DNA of 64,000 nucleotides from Alphaproteobacteria bacterium. Its GTDB lineage: Bacteria; Pseudomonadota; Alphaproteobacteria; DSM-16000; Inquilinaceae. The notes beneath the pieces are model-generated. The model was not told the DNA's origin, searched no databases, and saw nothing but the letters and a program-made list of their open reading frames with translations. The DNA lies in contig JANQGH010000069.1 in NCBI GenBank assembly GCA_028277405.1, positions 62,001 to 126,000 of the forward strand, given 5' to 3'. Each line of letters starts with the position of its first letter. Positions within the stretch are counted from its first letter, which is position 1. Both the position numbers and the translations under genes were made by a program. This document shows positions 11,181-21,615 of the stretch, piece after piece.

Positions 11181-11252
11181 GCCTTGTCCCGCACTGTCTT
11201 GAGCGATGGCTGCATGCCCCACCCTGGCACAAGACGTCCTCGGAAACAAAGT

Positions 11253-11281
11253 TTGACATGCAACCGGTTGCATGGCTCAAT
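11253..11281 (+). promoter_or_regulatory. LacI-type operator overlapping the nagB promoter
   Basis: A perfect 18-bp palindrome CATGCAACCGGTTGCATG (11257-11274) with the central CG typical of LacI-family operators. It starts within a consensus -35 TTGACA (11253-11258). Seventeen bases later, CTCAAT (11276-11281) could serve as a weak -10, which places transcription start at about 11288, the A of the chosen nagB ATG. The same 24 bases (11251-11274) recur at 15283-15306. Confidence 0.8.
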
Positions 11282-11287
11282 CCGGGA

Positions 11288-12118
11288 ATGACGCTCAGCA
11301 GCTCGAATCCTTCGCGCACAAATGGCCAGGCAGCCCCCCCGCGCGCCGAGGCAGAACAACCTATCGCAAGCGCCCTGGTCGGATCGCTGCGGGTGCAGAC
11401 CTACGGCTCGCGCCAGGCCCTCGCCCACGCCAGCAGCACCGACATTCGTCGCGCCCTGACCGAGTGCCTTGCGCGGCAGGATCGCGCGCGCTTGATCCTG
11501 GCCGCCGCGCCCAGCCAAGCCGAAATGCTGGCGGAACTGGCGCAGTCGGCTGACATCGACTGGTCACGCGTGACGCTGTTTCACATGGACGAGTTCATCG
11601 GCTTGCCGGCGGGGGCGCCGCAACGATTCGCCGTCTGGCTCGACCGGCATTTCTTCGCAAAGGTGCCGCAGGCGGAATGCCATAAGATCGTGCCCGAGCC
11701 GGCACCGGAGGCGGCCGCGGAACGCTATGCCGGTCTGCTGAGCGCGGACGACATCGACGTCGTTTGCCTGGGCATCGGGGTGAACGGGCATATCGCCTTC
11801 AACGACCCGCCGGTGGCCGATTTCGATGATCCGCTGGACGTCAAAGTCGTGGAACTGGACCGGACCTGCCGGCTTCAGCAGGTCGACGACCAGGGCTTTT
11901 CAAGCCTGGACCAGGTGCCGACCCACGCGGTCACGCTGACGATTCCCCGGCTGCGGCGTGCGAACAAGCTGTTTTGCTGCGTGCCCGGCGGCCATAAGGC
12001 CGAGGCGGTGAAGCAGTGCCTGACCGGCCCGGTCTCCACCGAGTGGCCGGCCAGCATTCTGCGCAGCCATCCCGACTGCACGCTCTATTTGGACAAGGAC
12101 TCCAACCCCGATGTCTGA
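11288..12118 (+). CDS. Glucosamine-6-phosphate deaminase family protein (NagB-like)
   Basis: 276 residues from ATG 11288. The NagB signature CLGIGVNGHIAFNDPP is intact, along with TLFHMDEFIGL, which holds the catalytic aspartate region. The family converts glucosamine-6-phosphate to fructose-6-phosphate and ammonia in the cytoplasm. An earlier in-frame ATG (11258) is inside the operator. No Shine-Dalgarno precedes 11288, and the predicted transcript start coincides with it, so the message may be leaderless. The 3' end overlaps the SIS gene by 8 bases, showing tight coupling. Start-site confidence is moderate. Confidence 0.85.
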   Translation: MTLSSSNPSRTNGQAAPPRAEAEQPIASALVGSLRVQTYGSRQALAHASSTDIRRALTECLARQDRARLILAAAPSQAEMLAELAQSADIDWSRVTLFHMDEFIGLPAGAPQRFAVWLDRHFFAKVPQAECHKIVPEPAPEAAAERYAGLLSADDIDVVCLGIGVNGHIAFNDPPVADFDDPLDVKVVELDRTCRLQQVDDQGFSSLDQVPTHAVTLTIPRLRRANKLFCCVPGGHKAEAVKQCLTGPVSTEWPASILRSHPDCTLYLDKDSNPDV

Positions 12119-12890
12119 CCAGCCAAAGATCAACGCCGACGCGCTGTGCGAGGACTATTTCAGCGCAATTCAGGATCTGATGCGGCGCATCCTCGATGAG
12201 GAGTCAGGCGCGCTGGACAAGGCAGCGGAGATGCTCGCCGACCAGATCGCGGCGGACCGGCTGGTCCACGTCTTTGGCCCCGGCGGCCATTCCAACCTGG
12301 CGACGCAGGAGGTGTTCTTTCGTGCCGGCGGCCTGATGCATATCAGCGCCATCCTGGACGAGGGCACCATGCTGGCAAACGGCGCCTTGCGCTCGATGGC
12401 GATCGAGCGGACGCCGGGCTACGGCAAGGTGGTGATCGCCAATCGCGGCCTTGGCGACACGGATTTGTTGGTGCTGGTCAATGCCTACGGCATCAACGCG
12501 GCGTTGATCGATTCCGCGCTGGAGGCGCGCAGCCGTGGCTGCACCATCATCGGTATCAGCTCGGCGGGCCACGCGGCGAACACGGCCCCGGACCACCCGG
12601 CGCGCCACCCGACCAAGCAGAACCTGCAAGACGTCGTCGACCTGCATATCGACACCAAGGTGCCGATCGGTGACGCGGTCGTCGCCGTGCCGGGCATCGG
12701 CGAGAAGATCGCGGCGGTCTCGACCTTCGCCAACGCGTTTACCCTGAACTGCCTGGTCATACGCGTCGTCGCCAAGCTGAAGGATCGCGGTATCGACCCG
12801 CCGATCTGGCGCAGCGGCAACGCGCCGGGCGGGGATGCGGCCAATGCGCGCTTCATCGACAAGTTCAGGCACCGCGTGCCGACGCTATGA
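12111..12890 (+). CDS. SIS (sugar isomerase) domain protein, UPF0309-like
   Basis: 259 residues with a single SIS fold: phosphosugar-binding GPGGHSNLATQEVFFRAGG around 55-75 and SSAGHAANTAPDHP around 150. It matches the uncharacterised UPF0309 type rather than GlmS or MurQ. The family binds phosphosugars; a specific reaction is not established from sequence. It overlaps nagB and is overlapped by nagA (4 bases at ATGA), so it is expressed with the amino-sugar pathway and probably handles a phosphorylated intermediate. Confidence 0.85.
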   Translation: MSDQPKINADALCEDYFSAIQDLMRRILDEESGALDKAAEMLADQIAADRLVHVFGPGGHSNLATQEVFFRAGGLMHISAILDEGTMLANGALRSMAIERTPGYGKVVIANRGLGDTDLLVLVNAYGINAALIDSALEARSRGCTIIGISSAGHAANTAPDHPARHPTKQNLQDVVDLHIDTKVPIGDAVVAVPGIGEKIAAVSTFANAFTLNCLVIRVVAKLKDRGIDPPIWRSGNAPGGDAANARFIDKFRHRVPTL

Positions 12891-14038
12891 CAGACGGCGC
12901 GGAGATCCTGGGCAGCGACCCGGCGACGGGCGAAAGCCTTCGCCTGATCGTCGAGGACCGTGCGATCGCCGCGATCGAGCCCGCTGCCGAAGACACCGAC
13001 GCCTTCCTGGCCCCGGGCCTGATCGACCTGCAGGTGAACGGCTATGGCGGCATTGACCTGAACGATGCCGATCTGACGCCCGATGCCGTCTCCGACCTAT
13101 GCCGATCGCTGGCGACGCTCGGCGTGACGACGTTTCTGCCAACGGTCATTACCGCCCCGGAGGATCGGATTATCGGCGCCCTGGGCAGGATCGCAGCCGC
13201 GCGGGCGGCCGATCCCTTGGCGGCCGAGATGATCGCTGGGATCCATGTGGAAGGTCCGTCTGTGTCGCCGGAGGACGGGCCGCGCGGTGCGCATCCGCTC
13301 GAATTTGTGCGGCCGCCATCGATCGAGGAGTTCGACCGCTGGCAAGCGGCCTGCGACGGTTTGGTTGCGATGGTGACACTAGCGCCAGAGCATGACGGCG
13401 CCCTCACCTACATCGACGCCGTGTCGCAACGCGGCGTCCACGTCGCCATTGGCCATTCCGGCGCGTCGGCGGATCAAATCCACGCGGCTGTCGCTGAAGG
13501 CGCGCGGCTGTCGACCCATCTCGGTAACGGGGCTGCCGCCACGCTGCCGCGCCATCCAAACCTGATCTGGGCGCAGCTCGCCAGCGACATGCTGACCGCC
13601 ACCTTCATCGCCGACGGGCATCACCTGCCGGCCGACACGTTTGCCGCGATGCTGCGCGCCAAGGGACTGGACAAAGCGGTCCTGGTCTCAGACAGCGTCG
13701 CCCTGGCCGGACTGCCGGCCGGGGTCTATGAGCAGCCGATCGGCGGTAAGGTCGAGTTGAGCGAGGACGGTAGGGTGAGCCTCGCGGGCACGCCCTACCT
13801 CGCAGGCGCGGGCCTGCCACTGATCAACACCCTGCCCATCGCCATGCGCATGGCGGGGCTCGATCTCGCTTCGGTCCTGCGCATGGCCACGACCAACCCT
13901 GGTCGGTTCGTCGGCCGGTCGGAAGGTCTGAAGACTGGTGCGCGTGCCGACATTCTGCGCTTCCGCCGACCGTACGACCCGCAGGGGCCGCTCGACGTCG
14001 TCGACGTTTGGTCGGCCGGGCGGAGGGTGGCGCCGTGA
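12887..14038 (+). CDS. nagA: N-acetylglucosamine-6-phosphate deacetylase
   Basis: 383 residues of the amidohydrolase superfamily. It hydrolyses GlcNAc-6-P to GlcN-6-P and acetate, feeding the NagB-like enzyme. Visible features are PGLIDLQVNGYGGID at about 43-57, metal ligand E122 in GIHVEGP, H190 in AIGHSG, H211 in STHLGNG, and catalytic D269 in VLVSDS. Like the Escherichia coli enzyme it lacks the HxH at the end of strand 1 (LQVN), consistent with the single-metal subgroup. It starts in the ATGA overlap with the SIS gene and ends in a GTGA overlap with the next gene. Confidence 0.92.
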   Translation: MTDGAEILGSDPATGESLRLIVEDRAIAAIEPAAEDTDAFLAPGLIDLQVNGYGGIDLNDADLTPDAVSDLCRSLATLGVTTFLPTVITAPEDRIIGALGRIAAARAADPLAAEMIAGIHVEGPSVSPEDGPRGAHPLEFVRPPSIEEFDRWQAACDGLVAMVTLAPEHDGALTYIDAVSQRGVHVAIGHSGASADQIHAAVAEGARLSTHLGNGAAATLPRHPNLIWAQLASDMLTATFIADGHHLPADTFAAMLRAKGLDKAVLVSDSVALAGLPAGVYEQPIGGKVELSEDGRVSLAGTPYLAGAGLPLINTLPIAMRMAGLDLASVLRMATTNPGRFVGRSEGLKTGARADILRFRRPYDPQGPLDVVDVWSAGRRVAP

Positions 14039-15288
14039 TCCGCGCCGGCGTCGCGGTGATCGACATCACGCCGCCGCCGGGCCTGCTGATGGCCGGCTTC
14101 GCTGCGCGCACGGAGCCGGCGGAGGGCGCCCATGATCCCCTGACCGTCCGAGCATTGGCGGTCGATGAGACCGTCTTAGTGGTCGCGGACGTGATCGGCT
14201 TTCACCAGGAGATGAGCGCGCGGGTGCGCGCCCGCTGCGGCCTGCCCGATGAGAATGTCATGCTGTGCGCCACGCACACCCATGGCGGGCCGGTCTCGAT
14301 GCTAGGACGGCTGCATGCGGCGGCGGACTCCGGTTATCTGGGCCGACTGGAGGATGCCTGCGTCACGGCCATCGACCAGGCGCGTGACAGGCGCGTCGAC
14401 GCCGAGCTGTTTTTTGCAGCGGGTGACGATCCCGACGTGGCGCGCAACCGACGCCATGATGACGGTCCGATCGACCGAACCCTGCCGGTCCTGACGGTGC
14501 GCCGGACGGATGGGGACGTGCTGGCGATCCTGGTCAACTACGCCTGTCATCCGGTGGTGCTGGGCGCCGACAATCGGCAATGGACGGGCGACTATCCGCA
14601 CTTCGTCCGCGCCGAACTCGAGGCCTCCAACCCCGGCGCGACCGCGATCTTCCTGACCGGCTGCATCGGCGATCTGAACACCGGCCATTCCGCCGAGGCC
14701 TCGATCAGCCTGGCCGGCAATCCGGCGCGCAGCTTCCCGACCGCCGAGGCCATTGGCAAGCGGATCGCCGAGGCCGTCGCGGAGGGCAAAGACAGGCCGC
14801 TCGGCACCGATTGCTCGGCAGCCTTGACCAGCGTGACCCTAACATTTGAGCGGCGCGAACAGGCACCCTTCGAAAGCCTGCGCCTCTCCTGGCTGGATGA
14901 GGCGGCACACAGCGACCAGGCGCGCGCGGAGCTGTTGAAGATCTGGGCGGATTGGGCACGGGACATCGCGCCGCGTCCGTTGGACCCGCTTCCCGAGCGG
15001 GTCGCCATGTTCGATTGGGGCGGCATGATCCTGATCGGCATGCCAGGCGAGATCTTTGCCGCGACAGCCCTTGATCTGCGCGCGGCGCTGGGCGATCGGC
15101 CCGTGATGCTGGCCGGCTTTTGCGACGACAATCCCGGCTATATCCCGCCGCGGGAAGAGTACCGGTTCGGCGGTTACGAGGTCGACGAGGCGCACCGCTT
15201 CTATGGCCAGCCGGCCACAATCGCGCCGGGCTGCGCCGAGGCGATTCGCGATGCGGCCTTGGCTATCACCGGCGTCCGGCACGTTTGA
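14035..15288 (+). CDS. Neutral ceramidase-like / alkaline ceramidase superfamily hydrolase
   Basis: About 417 residues from a GTG in the GTGA overlap with nagA, with GGAGGG just before it. Family blocks are VIDITPPPGLLMAGFAAR at the N-terminus, the CATHTHGGP zinc-ligand motif, NYACHPVVLG, and GCIGDLNTG. These match the neutral/alkaline non-lysosomal ceramidase superfamily, which has zinc-dependent amidases. No signal peptide is visible, so the enzyme seems cytoplasmic, unlike secreted ceramidases. In an amino-sugar operon it may deacylate or hydrolyse an amide of the imported sugar; that is inference. Confidence 0.78.
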   Translation: MIRAGVAVIDITPPPGLLMAGFAARTEPAEGAHDPLTVRALAVDETVLVVADVIGFHQEMSARVRARCGLPDENVMLCATHTHGGPVSMLGRLHAAADSGYLGRLEDACVTAIDQARDRRVDAELFFAAGDDPDVARNRRHDDGPIDRTLPVLTVRRTDGDVLAILVNYACHPVVLGADNRQWTGDYPHFVRAELEASNPGATAIFLTGCIGDLNTGHSAEASISLAGNPARSFPTAEAIGKRIAEAVAEGKDRPLGTDCSAALTSVTLTFERREQAPFESLRLSWLDEAAHSDQARAELLKIWADWARDIAPRPLDPLPERVAMFDWGGMILIGMPGEIFAATALDLRAALGDRPVMLAGFCDDNPGYIPPREEYRFGGYEVDEAHRFYGQPATIAPGCAEAIRDAALAITGVRHV

Positions 15289-15313
15289 CATGCAACCGGT
15301 TGCATGCAACACT
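15285..15313 (+). promoter_or_regulatory. Second LacI-type operator, ahead of the sugar ABC operon
   Basis: The palindrome CATGCAACCGGTTGCATG recurs at 15289-15306 with the identical preceding GTTTGA. TTGACA (15285-15290), a 17-base spacer filled by the operator, and AACACT (15308-15313) form a plausible promoter, with start near 15320. It begins just before the end of the ceramidase-like gene. A bound repressor would cover the -35 to -10 interval. Confidence 0.8.
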
Positions 15314-15358: not shown

Positions 15359-16651
15359 ATGGGAAGGCACACGAAGACATCGATGACCTTGAGTGCGGCG
15401 CTGCTGGTCGGCACCGCGATCGGGGCCAACTCGGCAGCGGCGGAGACGATCACCGTTTGGAGCGGGTTCCCTGAGATGGTGCCCTTCTACGAGCACGTCG
15501 CGGCGTCCATGGCCGACGACCATCCGGACCTGGAGGTCAATGTCGAGGCCATCGCCTTGCGCGAGCATGAACGGCGCATCGCGCTCGGCCTCACCGGCGG
15601 CGGACAAGGCACGCTGGTGATCGAACTGGCCGGCTCCACCGCCCAGCGCTACATCGAGAATGAACTTCTGCCGGCCGTGCCGGACGACGTTGCCAGCTTC
15701 GTGACGGGTGACGGCAATTTCTCGGAGTTTTTCATCAACACGGCCAGCGACGGCGGCACGGTGTACGGCGTGCCGTTGTTCCGGGGCCAGGGCGCCCTGT
15801 TCTACAACACCGACATGTTCGAGGCGGCGGGCCTGAGCGAGCCGCCCGCGACCATGGCCGACTACACGACCTATGCCGAGCAGCTGACCGAGCGGGACGC
15901 CGATGGCAATCCGATCGTGTCGGGCTGGAGCCTGCGCCTGTCCGGTGGCGGACAAGGCATTGCCGAGAAATTTTGGATCAACCTGTTCCAGTTCGGCGGC
16001 TCGGTGCTCGAACAGACCGACGACGGCACGTGGCAGGCCGGCTACGCCAACGAGGCCGGGCGGAACGCGCTGAACCAGTATCTGGTCAACCTTTACACGC
16101 TGGACACGGTGACGCCGGAAATGCCAGCCGACGCCGAGGCGTTCCAGCGCGGCCAGACGGCCATGTTCATCCGCGAATCCTGGGTCATCGGCGACATCGC
16201 CGCACGGGCACCTGACCTGAACTATGCGACCGCCCCCCTGCCCGTCGGCTCAATCGCGCTGCCCGTCAACCTCTATGTCAACGAGGCCGATGGCGACGGC
16301 GCGGACGCAGCCTGGGCCTTCGCCATGGCCGCCAACGAGCCGGAGAACCTAGTCTGGCTGTTGGAGAATGTCGGCTGGCTGCCCAACCGGATCAATGTCG
16401 ACTATTCGTCGGTGACCGAGGCCGTTCCACAATTCTCTGCCTTTGTCGATAACCCGGCGGGCTTTGAATTCTTCACACTGCCGGCGATCGGGCCGATCGA
16501 AGAGGTTCTGACCCGCCTTGCCGCGCAGCTTGAGCAGGCCTTCGCCGACCCGTCGTTGGCGGACGATCCTGACGCCATCGACGCCTTCCTGGCGGCCGCG
16601 GCGGAAGAGACCAACCGTATCCTCGAGCGTGAAGGCCTGCTTGCACAGTAG
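15359..16651 (+). CDS. Sugar ABC transporter substrate-binding protein (family 1, MalE/UgpB-like)
   Basis: 430 residues from ATG 15359, preceded by a strong AAGGAGGGG. The N-terminal signal peptide (TLSAALLVGTAIGANSAAAE) sends it to the periplasm. The mature protein starts ETITVWSGFPEMVPFYEHVA, typical of cluster B/family 1 binding proteins, and contains YGVPLFRGQGALFYNTDMFEAAG. It delivers a sugar to the two permeases downstream. Position after the nag genes and behind the shared operator suggests an amino sugar or oligosaccharide ligand; that is inference. Confidence 0.9.
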   Translation: MGRHTKTSMTLSAALLVGTAIGANSAAAETITVWSGFPEMVPFYEHVAASMADDHPDLEVNVEAIALREHERRIALGLTGGGQGTLVIELAGSTAQRYIENELLPAVPDDVASFVTGDGNFSEFFINTASDGGTVYGVPLFRGQGALFYNTDMFEAAGLSEPPATMADYTTYAEQLTERDADGNPIVSGWSLRLSGGGQGIAEKFWINLFQFGGSVLEQTDDGTWQAGYANEAGRNALNQYLVNLYTLDTVTPEMPADAEAFQRGQTAMFIRESWVIGDIAARAPDLNYATAPLPVGSIALPVNLYVNEADGDGADAAWAFAMAANEPENLVWLLENVGWLPNRINVDYSSVTEAVPQFSAFVDNPAGFEFFTLPAIGPIEEVLTRLAAQLEQAFADPSLADDPDAIDAFLAAAAEETNRILEREGLLAQ

Positions 16652-16731: not shown

Positions 16732-17619
16732 ATGCTGCGCACCAAGAAGTGGCGGTTTGCGATCCTGGCGATTTTGCCGACGCTCGCGATTTTCGCCTGG
16801 GTGCGCATGTTTCCGATCTGGGAAACCCTGCGGCTCAGCCTGCATCGCTGGGACATACTCTCCCGCGATAAGCCGTTCATCGGACTGGAGAACTTCCGCG
16901 AGCTGTTTCAGGACCAGCTGTTCCTGAACGCCCTGGTCAACACCACGATCATCGCCTTTGGCGTGCTGTTCGTGACCATTCCGGCGGCCCTGGTGATCGC
17001 CGCCCTGATCTACCACCGCACCCGCTCGCGCTTCGCCGGCTTCTACGAGACCACCGTTTTCATTCCGCACATCGTGTCGCTGGTGCCGGCGGCGATGGCT
17101 TGGAAATGGATCTTCGACGCCAATCTCGGGCCGCTGAACGCAGTCCTGGAATTCTTCGGCATCCCGGGCCAGGCCTGGCTGTTCGACCCGGTGCTGTCGG
17201 TGATTTGCATCATCATCCTGTGCTCGTGGCAGGCGCTGGGCTATGCGGTGCTGATCTATCTGGTCGGCTTCAAGAACCTGCCGCACACCCTGTTCGAGGC
17301 CGCCAAGCTGGACGGCGCCTCGGGCATTCAGCGGTTCTTTTTCATCTCCGTGCCCCTGTTGCGGCCGATCACGCTGTACGTCTCGGTCGTGACGCTGATT
17401 TCCGGCTTCAATGTCTACGCCCAGGCGTTCGTGCTGGCCTCGGACTCGCAAGGCGCGCCCGGCCGTTTGGTTCGCGTGCTGGTGCTGGACATGTTGGAAA
17501 ACGCCTTCCGCAACTACCGCGTCGGCTACGCGGCGTCGGAGGCGGTCATTCTGCTTTGCATCGTGCTGGTACTGACGCTGGTCCAGTTCGGTCTGCTGCG
17601 CGAGAAGTGGAACCGATGA
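16732..17619 (+). CDS. Sugar ABC transporter permease (MalF/UgpA-like)
   Basis: 295 residues, about six membrane helices. The cytoplasmic EAA loop, which contacts the ATPase, reads TLFEAAKLDGASGIQRFFFISVPLL. The N-terminus (KKWRFAILAILPTLAIFAW) matches MalF-type permeases of the CUT1 family without the long extra loop. Its stop overlaps the next start (ATGA), so the two permeases are translationally coupled and form the membrane channel as a heterodimer. Confidence 0.9.
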   Translation: MLRTKKWRFAILAILPTLAIFAWVRMFPIWETLRLSLHRWDILSRDKPFIGLENFRELFQDQLFLNALVNTTIIAFGVLFVTIPAALVIAALIYHRTRSRFAGFYETTVFIPHIVSLVPAAMAWKWIFDANLGPLNAVLEFFGIPGQAWLFDPVLSVICIIILCSWQALGYAVLIYLVGFKNLPHTLFEAAKLDGASGIQRFFFISVPLLRPITLYVSVVTLISGFNVYAQAFVLASDSQGAPGRLVRVLVLDMLENAFRNYRVGYAASEAVILLCIVLVLTLVQFGLLREKWNR

Positions 17620-18497
17620 GCGACGCGGATCAAAAGCCGGCCGCCGAGACGGTCCCCGGCCTTGGCATGACCGCCCGCGCGCGGCTGACCAACCTGACCA
17701 TCGACATCGTGCTGTTCGTCTTCGGCATCCTGATGGTGCTGCCCCTGGTGCTGCTGGTGGCCAACGCGTTCAAGACGCCTCAGGAGATGGTGGCCTGGCC
17801 GCCGACGATCATCCCGGCCGACCCGACGCTCGACAATTTCCGCTCCGTGCTCGGCGAGACGCCGCTGCTGCGCTGGATCTGGACAAGCCTGCGCTTTGCG
17901 TTCCTGTCGATGGTGGCGATCGTCATAACCTCGTCGATCGTCGGCTATGTGCTGGCCAAGTTCCAGTTCCGGACGCTGGAGGTCATCTTCATCCTGATCC
18001 TCGCCACGGCGATCGTGCCGTTCGAGGTCTATATGATCCCGCTCTATTTCCAGGCCCAGTCACTCGGCATCCTCAACTCGATCTGGGGCCTGCTGCTCGG
18101 CTATCTGGTCATGAGCTTCGGCATCTTTCTGATCCGCCAGAACGTGAAGCATTCGATCCCCGACGAGCTGTTGGAAGCGGCGCGCATCGACGGCGCCGGC
18201 GAGCTGTGGATCTTCGCGCGGATTGTTCTGCCCCTGCTGCGCGGACCGCTGGGCGCGCTGGCGGTGCTGTCCTTCTTCCAGGCCTGGACCGCGTTTGCCT
18301 GGCCGATCATCGTCACCACCTCGCGCGATGCCTACACCATCGAGGTTGGCCTGGCCCTGTTCCAGACCGGCTTTACGGTCGATCTCGGCCGGCTTAGCGC
18401 GGCGGCCGCGGCCGTCCTGGTGCCCTCGGTGACGATCTTCGTCATCCTGCGGCGCAACTTCGTCCAAGGCATTGCCAGCACCGGGGTCAAGGAATGA
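17616..18497 (+). CDS. Sugar ABC transporter permease (MalG/UgpE-like)
   Basis: 293 residues from the ATG in the ATGA overlap. A short polar N-terminus precedes TM1 (TIDIVLFVFGILMVLPLVLL), and the EAA loop is DELLEAARIDGAGELWIFARIVLPLL. It is CUT1-type and pairs with the preceding permease. An open frame extends upstream over the first permease but is out of family, so 17616 is the start. Confidence 0.9.
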   Translation: MSDADQKPAAETVPGLGMTARARLTNLTIDIVLFVFGILMVLPLVLLVANAFKTPQEMVAWPPTIIPADPTLDNFRSVLGETPLLRWIWTSLRFAFLSMVAIVITSSIVGYVLAKFQFRTLEVIFILILATAIVPFEVYMIPLYFQAQSLGILNSIWGLLLGYLVMSFGIFLIRQNVKHSIPDELLEAARIDGAGELWIFARIVLPLLRGPLGALAVLSFFQAWTAFAWPIIVTTSRDAYTIEVGLALFQTGFTVDLGRLSAAAAAVLVPSVTIFVILRRNFVQGIASTGVKE

Positions 18498-18532: not shown

Positions 18533-19606
18533 ATGGCCGACGTTCAGATCCGCGACGTGCACAAGGCCTATGGCGAGGTCGAGACGATCAAGGGCGTGTC
18601 GGTCGATGCGCCGGACGGTCAGTTCGTCGTCCTGGTCGGCCCGTCGGGCTGCGGCAAGTCCACCCTGTTGCGCATGATCGCGGGGCTGGAGGAGATCGAC
18701 CGGGGCACCATCAGCATCGGCGGCCGGGTCATCAACCAGGTCGAGCCGAAGAACCGCGACATCGCGATGGTGTTTCAGAACTACGCGCTCTACCCCCACA
18801 TGACGGTGGCCGTGAACATGGCCTTCTCGCTGCGGCTGGCGCGGACGCCGAAGGCGGAGATCGCGCGGCGGGTCGCGGAGGCCGCGCGCATCCTGGGCCT
18901 GACGGAGTATCTGGAGCGTTATCCCAAGCAGCTTTCCGGCGGCCAGCGCCAGCGGGTGGCCATGGGCCGGGCGATCGTGCGCAACCCACAGGTCTATCTG
19001 TTCGACGAGCCGCTTTCGAACCTCGACGCCAAGCTGCGCGTGCAGATGCGTGCGGAGTTGAAGGACATCCATGCACGCCTGAAGACCACGACCCTTTACG
19101 TCACCCACGACCAGATCGAGGCCATGACCATGGCCAACACGATCGTGGTCATGCGCGACGGCATCATCGAGCAGGCGGGCGCGCCCTTAGAGCTCTATGA
19201 TCATCCGGCGAACACGTTCGTGGGAAGCTTCATCGGCTCACCGGCGATGAATCTGATCGAGGGCCACTGCGACGGCCAGAACGGCGCGATCAAGCTGGAC
19301 GGCGAGGCCGTGCTCCGTCACGGCGTCCATGGCGTGCCCGCCGGCCCGGTGATCTGCGGCATCCGGCCGGAACATCTGGCCATCGTCGACGCAGAGAGCG
19401 ACGGCATCGATGTGGTCGTCACCACGCTGGAACCGACCGGGTCCGACACGCTGGTCCAAGCCCGCCTCGGCGATCAGATCATCGCCGCCCAGTTGCGCGA
19501 ACGCATCACCGCCCAGCCGGGCGACACGATCCGCCTCGGTAGTGCGCCGGAGAACACCCATCTGTTCGACGCGAAGTCCGAACGGCGGATTGCCGCGTCG
19601 GACTAG
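18533..19606 (+). CDS. Sugar ABC transporter ATPase (UgpC/MalK-like)
   Basis: 357 residues. It has Walker A GPSGCGKST at about 38-46, the [14 protein letters not shown] signature at about 134-147, Walker B VYLFDEPLSNLD and the H-loop THDQIEAM. A C-terminal regulatory TOBE/OB domain follows (VICGIRPEHLAIVD), as in MalK. It powers the importer from the cytoplasmic face. Its stop overlaps the stop of the convergent fusion gene by 4 bases, so the two transcripts must collide or share a terminator. Confidence 0.93.
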   Translation: MADVQIRDVHKAYGEVETIKGVSVDAPDGQFVVLVGPSGCGKSTLLRMIAGLEEIDRGTISIGGRVINQVEPKNRDIAMVFQNYALYPHMTVAVNMAFSLRLARTPKAEIARRVAEAARILGLTEYLERYPKQLSGGQRQRVAMGRAIVRNPQVYLFDEPLSNLDAKLRVQMRAELKDIHARLKTTTLYVTHDQIEAMTMANTIVVMRDGIIEQAGAPLELYDHPANTFVGSFIGSPAMNLIEGHCDGQNGAIKLDGEAVLRHGVHGVPAGPVICGIRPEHLAIVDAESDGIDVVVTTLEPTGSDTLVQARLGDQIIAAQLRERITAQPGDTIRLGSAPENTHLFDAKSERRIAASD

Positions 19607-21615
19607 CGCTCTTCGCGTTCCAGGTTCAGCCAGGCCGCCTCGTCGGCCGTCAACCCGACCTTGAGCGCCGGCAGCGTCGTCGCAAGTTCGTCCGGCGAGC
19701 GGGGGCCGATCAGCGCAAAGGACGGGAAGGATTGCGCCAACACCCAGGCGGTGGCGATGTTGTGCGGGGTGACGCCGCGCTCCACCGCAAGTAATTCAGC
19801 ACGCCGCCGCCTTTCCTCGTTGGCGGCGCTGCCGAAGCAGCGATCGGGGCCGATATGATCAGGCAGCCGGTCCCTCAACTCGGGCGGCAAGAAGAAGCCG
19901 CGCGCCTGAGACGACCAGGAGAGATGGACCGTTCCGGTATCGCGCAGCCAGGCTAAGGTCTCGCCCGTGTTGGACGAGACGCAGCCCGACCAGATGGGCC
20001 TTTCCATCACCGCGAGCGACAGGTTGTTGTTCAGGATGCTGAAGCCTTGAAGGCCGTGCCGTTCGGCATACTCGTTGGCCTCGACAAAGCGCTCGACGGT
20101 CCAGTTGGAGCCGCCGAAGATGCCGATCCGCCCCGCCTCGCGCAGGCGGTTCAGCGCATCCACGAACTCGCCAACGGGCACCGACGGGTTATCGCGGTGC
20201 ATGATGTAGATCGGCACGCGATCGAGCCCCAGCCGGCCGAGCGACCGCAGCACCTGCGGCTCGATCGTGCCGGGCGTGCAGAACGGACTGTGTGCCCCCT
20301 TGGCCACCACGACGACCTCGTCGCCGACGCCCCGGCTGGCGATCCAATGGCCAAGCGCGGTCTCGTGGCGTCCGCCGCCATAGATGAAGGCGGTGTCGAA
20401 GGCGTTACCCCCCGCCTCCATCCAGGCATCCCAGACCACGGCCCCGTCCTCGAGTGTCGCCTTGTTGTCGCAGCCCATGATCAGGGATGACACCGGCTGA
20501 TCGACGCCGTCGACCCGGGTTTTGGGCACTGTGGGCAAGCCTTGAGGTATCAGCCTGGGCAACACGGCGAGCGGCGCCCGGTCCTCGACGCCGTATGCAT
20601 AGCCGATCTCCCGCCGCCAACGATCCAGGGTTTCGGCATTGCCGATACTGTCGCCCCAACCGGCGGCCGGCGGATCGGGCTCATGCGCGCCGGCAGCAAT
20701 GGCGCGGCTCGCCAGCTCGGCCTCGAAGGCGAACAGATGCTCCGGCCGGCGGATTTCCTCGCGACGGGTTTCGCCGCCAACCGTCACCTCGATGATGGCG
20801 TCCGACGGTCCGGCATTGCGGCCCGGCGTCCACGGGTTGGGCAGATGGATCTGGCCCTCGGTTCCGATGATCGTCGCCGTGTTGTCCATAGCGCGGCGGA
20901 TCGCGGTCGCGCATTCGGCGATGACCCCACCGGGAAAGCGCAGCAGCGCGTAAGCTTCCTCGTCGACGCCGGAGCGGCCGATATGGCCCACAGCCTTCAC
21001 CTCATCCGGGTCTTCCCAGTCCTTGCCCACGGCAGCGCCGGCCACCAGGCGCGCGAGGGACACGGGGTAGATCCCGACATCCAGAATGGCGCCGCCACCC
21101 AAAGCGCGGTCGAACAGGCGCGATGCGGGATTGAACGAGGCCCGAAACCCGAAGGAGGCACGGACATGCTCGACCGTGCCGATTTCGCCGCTGCGGATGA
21201 TCTCGACCAGGCGCGCGATCTGCGGATGGCAGCGATACATCACCGCCTCCATGAAGAACACGCCCTCTTGCGCCGCGACCTCCGTCATGGCGATCACCTG
21301 CGCTGCGGTGATCCCGGCGGGCTTTTCGCACAGCACGTGCTTGCCGGCGCGCAGCGCCATGAGGGCGTGACCGGCATGGAGGGCCTGCGGCGTCGAAATG
21401 TAGATGGCGTCGACGTCCGGATCGTCCGCCAGCGCTTCATAGGTCGAGTGGCGATTTTCAGGTGCGATTTCGTAGGCGTCACCGAAGCTATTGCGCCGCT
21501 TTTCGTTCCCGCTGGCGATCGCGACGAGCCGGCCCGACGACGCCTCGGCCAGGCCATCGGCGAAGTTGTGGGCGATGGCCCCAGGTCCAAGAATGCCCCA
21601 ACGGGTGTTACTCAT
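19603..21615 (-). CDS. Fused Gfo/Idh/MocA oxidoreductase - aldo/keto reductase
   Basis: 670 residues holding two complete redox domains. Residues about 1-330 are Gfo/Idh/MocA: NAD(P) motif WGILGPGAIAHNFADGL and catalytic-lysine block HVLCEKPAGIT. Residues about 345-670 are an aldo/keto reductase: tetrad region GNAFDTAFIYGGGRHE (Asp, Tyr), the lysine in VVVVAKGAH, and the histidine in IYIMHRDN. Each half normally stands alone. Linking them suggests that a sugar is oxidised and re-reduced (a redox-neutral epimerisation or deoxygenation) with channelling of the keto intermediate; that is inference. It lies convergent to the amino-sugar transporter operon. Confidence 0.88.
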   Translation of the reverse strand: MSNTRWGILGPGAIAHNFADGLAEASSGRLVAIASGNEKRRNSFGDAYEIAPENRHSTYEALADDPDVDAIYISTPQALHAGHALMALRAGKHVLCEKPAGITAAQVIAMTEVAAQEGVFFMEAVMYRCHPQIARLVEIIRSGEIGTVEHVRASFGFRASFNPASRLFDRALGGGAILDVGIYPVSLARLVAGAAVGKDWEDPDEVKAVGHIGRSGVDEEAYALLRFPGGVIAECATAIRRAMDNTATIIGTEGQIHLPNPWTPGRNAGPSDAIIEVTVGGETRREEIRRPEHLFAFEAELASRAIAAGAHEPDPPAAGWGDSIGNAETLDRWRREIGYAYGVEDRAPLAVLPRLIPQGLPTVPKTRVDGVDQPVSSLIMGCDNKATLEDGAVVWDAWMEAGGNAFDTAFIYGGGRHETALGHWIASRGVGDEVVVVAKGAHSPFCTPGTIEPQVLRSLGRLGLDRVPIYIMHRDNPSVPVGEFVDALNRLREAGRIGIFGGSNWTVERFVEANEYAERHGLQGFSILNNNLSLAVMERPIWSGCVSSNTGETLAWLRDTGTVHLSWSSQARGFFLPPELRDRLPDHIGPDRCFGSAANEERRRRAELLAVERGVTPHNIATAWVLAQSFPSFALIGPRSPDELATTLPALKVGLTADEAAWLNLEREER

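Follow-up and report, generated by a model that had tools for sequence, protein, structure and literature searches.

Organization of the locus

The locus lies in a 64-kb stretch of DNA, called the window here. A gene for a LacI-family regulator is followed, on the opposite strand, by a unit encoding NagB-like, SIS-domain, NagA-like and neutral-ceramidase-like proteins and then by the genes of an ABC importer (Table 1). The regulator scores 36.6 bits against PF00356 (cut-off 27) and 96.3 bits against PF13377. Its probable start is favored because the conserved N terminus of its orthologues begins near residue 1 of the resulting protein, and the start of the NagB-like gene was judged from its N terminus relative to annotated homologues. 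An ATG inside the predicted operator described below was considered as the start of either the NagB-like or the LacI-family protein and was rejected in view of the starts of homologues. Beyond the importer and convergent to it, positions 19603-21615 encode a 670-aa protein in which a Gfo/Idh/MocA oxidoreductase is fused to an aldo/keto reductase.

Table 1. Genes, repeat copies and promoter elements of the locus, in window coordinates
Feature	Position	Strand	Remarks
LacI-family regulator, 327 aa	10197-11180	-	probable start GTG 11180; Pfam LacI and Peripla_BP_3; HTH TISQVAQAAGVNRSSVSRAF
Repeat copy 1	11251-11274	+	-35 TTGACA 11253-11258 fused to predicted operator O1 CATGCAACCGGTTGCATG, 11257-11274
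Promoter 1, -10 position CTCAAT	11276-11281	+	17-bp spacing; conserved T6 kept, conserved A2 absent (T instead)
NagB-like protein, glucosamine-6-phosphate deaminase family	11288-12118	+	PF01182; ATG 11288 likely start, GTG 11393 alternative
SIS-domain sugar isomerase/NagS-like protein (PRK02947 family)	12111-12890	+	NF002805 above cut-off; PDB 9eol, E 7e-37
NagA-like amidohydrolase, N-acetylglucosamine-6-phosphate deacetylase family	12887-14038	+	TIGR00221; PDB NagA matches
Neutral-ceramidase N-terminal-domain-like protein	14035-15288	+	PF04734; PDB 2zws neutral ceramidase, E 9e-9
Repeat copy 2	15283-15306	+	-35 TTGACA 15285-15290 fused to predicted operator O2, 15289-15306
Promoter 2, -10 AACACT	15308-15313	+	17-bp spacing; conserved A2 and T6 both present
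ABC importer substrate-binding protein	15359-16651	+	PF13416/PF01547; distant matches to trehalose/maltose/XOS-binding proteins
ABC permease, UgpA/MalF type	16732-17619	+	family profiles
ABC permease, MalG type	17616-18497	+	ORF and orthologues; start inferred
UgpC/MalK-type ATPase	18533-19606	+	NF008653 above cut-off

An identical repeat ahead of both units

The same 24 bases, GTTTGACATGCAACCGGTTGCATG, stand letter for letter before the NagB-like gene and before the importer, as the initial annotation had reported together with the divergence of the LacI-type gene from the first copy. Each copy had also been placed in the spacer of a TTGACA promoter, a description that can be made more precise: the 18-bp palindrome within the repeat takes in the final CA of TTGACA together with 16 of the 17 spacer bases. 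O1 is situated 77 bp upstream of the regulator gene and 4.03 kb from O2, where the ceramidase-like gene ends in a TGA (15286-15288) that falls within the second TTGACA.

Within the window the palindrome has no further match at up to 3 mismatches (shuffle mean of 0.03 for 64-kb shuffles), and a scan of the 6.2-Mb genome for more copies returned only the window pair at up to 2 mismatches. One match with 3 mismatches elsewhere (C52:45308-45325) was set aside as chance, because a reversed control pattern does about as well, scoring 2 at the same threshold.

Conservation of the predicted operators

An exact scan for the TTGACA-operator 20-mer, TTGACATGCAACCGGTTGCA, through about 85,000 genomes, one per species, yielded 74 sites. 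Nearly all adjoin a LacI gene orthologous to that of the window, the site in Fundicoccus being next to an unrelated LacI, and most precede a NagB/SIS/NagA/ceramidase-like operon, many with the same ABC importer; the hosts are mostly Hyphomicrobiales. Because this sample was selected for the operator itself, operons were also gathered via the SIS protein, from Inquilinus relatives, plasmids, the family of genome G397 (10 of 297) and the family of genome G402 (3 of 394); a class-wide protein search (1 of 385) was too sparse. The resulting set holds 21 distinct orthologous operons, the window included, 18 of which were found by protein similarity without use of the operator; three of the 21 genomes (G397, G403 and G402) are not independent, since the pattern scan had supplied them as centres for these searches.

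With up to 2 mismatches allowed, the core TGCAACCGGTTGCA stands ahead of the first operon in all 21 cases and ahead of the importer in 15 of the 18 operons that carry one, there usually as CGCAACCGGTTGCA. In the same DNA, 367 kb in all, the real core has 19 exact matches, whereas permuted CG-centred palindromes average 0.01. From these counts, the predicted two-operator layout is conserved and not peculiar to the window. Both sites are perfect in two cases, the window and Roseitalea; among the orthologous operons compared, the importer operator is absent from Bradyrhizobium and a few others. The sites are even palindromes with a central CG, near both regulator and targets and conserved among orthologues, as in comparative definitions of LacI-family operators. 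Such phylogenetic footprinting at orthologous places lends support to what the initial annotation had proposed, a pair of LacI operators over catabolic genes and an importer.

Two copies that agree in all 24 bases are also what a duplication without regulatory role, such as a remnant of a mobile element or repeat family, would leave in a genome, and chance might be invoked as well. Only two copies exist in the genome, however, orthologous sites are conserved in many genera while their flanks have diverged, and the Ponticoccus operator, TGCAATCGATTGCA, has changed in both halves in step, a symmetric compensatory change. The phylogenetic footprint already contradicts an origin of this sort, and its probability is negligible.

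Variation around the conserved layout is of several kinds. In Inquilinus the operator occurs in tandem, 22 bp apart, and genes for an SSS-type symporter and for an AGE-type epimerase-like protein (both named from their sequences) replace the ABC importer; the predicted operator persists there though the transporter differs. Deltaproteobacterial MAGs (L032, L050 and L104; also L046 and L060) have the same LacI type and TTGACA-operator before a different operon, with dehydrogenase, TIM-barrel, FAH-like hydrolase, SDR and Gfo/Idh genes. By gene content this is a regulon switch, and an amino-sugar regulon can thus not be recognized from the operator by itself. In Streptomyces acidipaludis and Micromonospora matsumotoense (L076, L082), the LacI protein, operator and NagB are close to the alphaproteobacterial ones, as is NagA in L076, which suggests transfer of the whole cassette.

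A conserved -10 signature at fixed spacing

A generic sigma-70 scan detected no promoter at either repeat copy, because both -10 hexamers, CTCAAT and AACACT, are poor. It was superseded by a comparative -10 profile built from columns outside the selected 20-mer, over 48 non-redundant first sites and 24 pre-importer sites. Before nagB, position +18 is A in 44 of 48 sites and +22 is T in 45 of 48, which makes them the second and sixth bases of a -10 hexamer with a spacing of exactly 17 bp. Both bases are present in every pre-importer site (24/24 each). The family as a whole thus displays a sigma-70-type promoter (-35 TTGACA, 17-bp spacing, -10 A2/T6), to which promoter 2 of the window conforms, whereas promoter 1 agrees at T6 and departs at A2. 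With T in place of the conserved A, its -10 element is degenerate and the nagB promoter of the window may be weak. Transcription beginning about 7 bases past this -10 would start near ATG 11288, so the nagB message may be leaderless. In Nitratireductor (three loci), an overlapping pseudo-operator, GGCAACCGGTTGAC, lies 15 bp upstream, and the -35 box forms its right half.

The regulator and its predicted DNA recognition

Regulator orthologues beside the same operator are 50-73% identical. Among 85 of them, the recognition helix opens with R/K-S/A followed by VSR, and the ALSTG hinge hardly varies. In Ponticoccus the altered operator is accompanied by a repressor whose DNA-binding region differs at A27V, T29N, R30N and S61R. 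The closest solved relative by sequence is CcpA (1rzr, E 4e-37), which is alike in fold and HTH type and differs in its recognition helix, SMATVSR, and in its role.

The genome encodes 27 LacI-family proteins, and a paralogue rather than the adjacent gene could be the main reader of both sites, the more so as one of them (C16:58293-58421) likewise starts its recognition helix with Arg-Ser. Yet the adjacent gene alone has a site with up to 2 mismatches inside a distance of 1.5 kb, none of the other LacI genes having a similar site nearby, and it travels with the operator, recognition helix included, across many genera. Control chiefly by a paralogue is accordingly very unlikely. A further paralogue, with Thr-Ala at those helix positions, adjoins a second SIS-type operon: this SIS-type/ABC/LacI cluster of the same genome (L023:9500-16500, G000:C87) has TGTA-type palindromic sites near L023:14551-14585.

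Proposed regulation

The DNA itself shows the two sites, the lack of further copies in the genome at up to 2 mismatches, the conservation of each site at its place and a -10 signature that follows at a constant distance. From these features we infer binding, repression, the sign of control, the inducer and autoregulation. It is highly probable that both copies serve as operators for the LacI-family repressor encoded next to them, which would block the promoters of the nagB unit and the importer and release both jointly in response to a sugar. A repressor dimer on TGCAACCGGTTGCA would cover the spacer of the sigma-70-type promoter and the end of the -35 box, so that RNA polymerase could not bind. 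Such steric block had been predicted from the positions of the sites, and the conservation of a -10 element at 17-bp spacing in unselected flanking sequence supports occlusion of the polymerase.

O1 would control the nagB-SIS-nagA-ceramidase-like unit and possibly the regulator's own gene. At O2, the same repressor would act on a separate importer promoter and may additionally keep transcription of the first unit from running on into the importer genes. The inducer, a sugar or derivative that enters via the importer and is probably either an amino sugar or its catabolite, would release the repressor and induce both units. LacI forms loops by means of a C-terminal tetramerisation tail; the regulator ends without a tail of this type, and DNA looping across the 4.03 kb between O1 and O2 is therefore unlikely.

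The LacI protein might instead bind these sites as an activator or dual regulator, and some members of the family, such as PckR, are predicted in the main text of PMC4052901 to act both ways. Against this, the space between -35 and -10 is taken up by the operator at essentially every site, an arrangement that fits occlusion, and the -35 box is generally conserved, which makes an activator less needed. Activation or dual control is very unlikely on these grounds.

Enzymes and substrate

The label amino-sugar derives from homology to NagA, NagB and SIS proteins, and the enzymes of this operon are divergent. Neither of the first two reaches its equivalog cut-off: the NagB-like protein scores 111 bits against TIGR00502 (cut-off 236.9) and the NagA-like protein 197.8 bits against TIGR00221 (cut-off 225.65), the latter retaining the NagA core motifs. 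Among the NagB-like proteins, APSQ replaces the TGGTP-type loop in 76 of 78, and Arg at position 172 gives way to D, G, Q or E; we take this loop and Arg172 to be phosphate-binding residues of NagB. An alignment with NagS shows that the window SIS protein keeps catalytic H53, R64, E94, D179 and N228, and the E94, D179 and N228 motifs are kept in nearly all orthologues. S91 and the phosphate-binding S119/S121 are absent, with MA[IVM]E and NAY in their stead, and NAY replaces the S119/S121 region in all 66 SIS orthologues. The substrate of the NagB- and NagS-like enzymes may therefore be unusual.

No sugar kinase or PTS was seen in the window operon or among the annotated genes of five orthologous regions, and ROK-family proteins are encoded elsewhere in the genome. 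A speculative and on present evidence unlikely extension is that the regulon serves an undescribed amino-sugar route, in which NagB- and NagS-like enzymes devoid of canonical phosphate-binding residues are joined by a ceramidase-like protein and frequently an AGE epimerase, while a linked kinase is absent. Were this so, the substrate of these enzymes could be a non-phosphorylated amino sugar or one modified in some other way.

Relation to known systems

A search of the literature for this gene set with a LacI-family regulator, with supplementary files and RegPrecise outside its scope, found no description, and the passages of PMC4052901 compared here do not describe the regulon. Proteobacterial GlcNAc control has been assigned to NagC, to NagR (LacI family; gammaproteobacteria) and to NagQ (GntR family; alpha- and betaproteobacteria) (PMC5343134). 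Since the published alphaproteobacterial GlcNAc regulator is NagQ, and NagR is reported only from gammaproteobacteria, the regulon seems not to have been described before; in type it is ordinary, a textbook form of sugar control. It would provide many plant-associated and soil alphaproteobacteria with a specific regulon, where the surveys found give amino-sugar uptake to a GntR-type regulator or to none. It also ties one regulator to an uncharacterised set comprising the SIS protein, the ceramidase-like protein, an AGE epimerase and the ABC importer; once the inducer is identified, the substrate would thereby be known.

NagR of Shewanella and Xanthomonas is likewise a LacI-family protein over nagA/nagB homologues and sugar uptake genes (PMC5343134). 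By description, it is set apart by its restriction to gammaproteobacteria and its association with PTS or TonB uptake and a kinase; the present regulon is alphaproteobacterial, with an ABC (or SSS) transporter. NagQ governs a pathway of the same kind, likewise in alphaproteobacteria, but it belongs to the GntR family and recognizes tandem-repeat sites rather than palindromic ones (PMC5343134). The glucosamine genes of S. meliloti (SM_b21216-21221) also combine an alphaproteobacterial amino-sugar ABC importer with catabolic genes; compared by description, they include a dedicated kinase, SM_b21217, whereas the operon here has none (PMC11378808, PMC4961836). The GlcNAc-6P dehydratase NagS (SCO4393; PDB 9eol) is a homologue of the operon's SIS protein, in which E94 and D179, essential in NagS, and N228, important there, are kept and the three serines are replaced; homologues at similar distance that were assayed lacked NagS activity (PMC12680351). 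Further parallels are the local LacI-family regulons treated in the main text of PMC4052901, which share the even palindrome with central CG, the divergent regulator and, in some species, tandem 22-bp sites, a spacing reported there as typical of cooperative LacI dimers. Set against the regulons in that text, the present one does not differ in kind, although its near-invariant fusion of -35 box and operator is unusually uniform.
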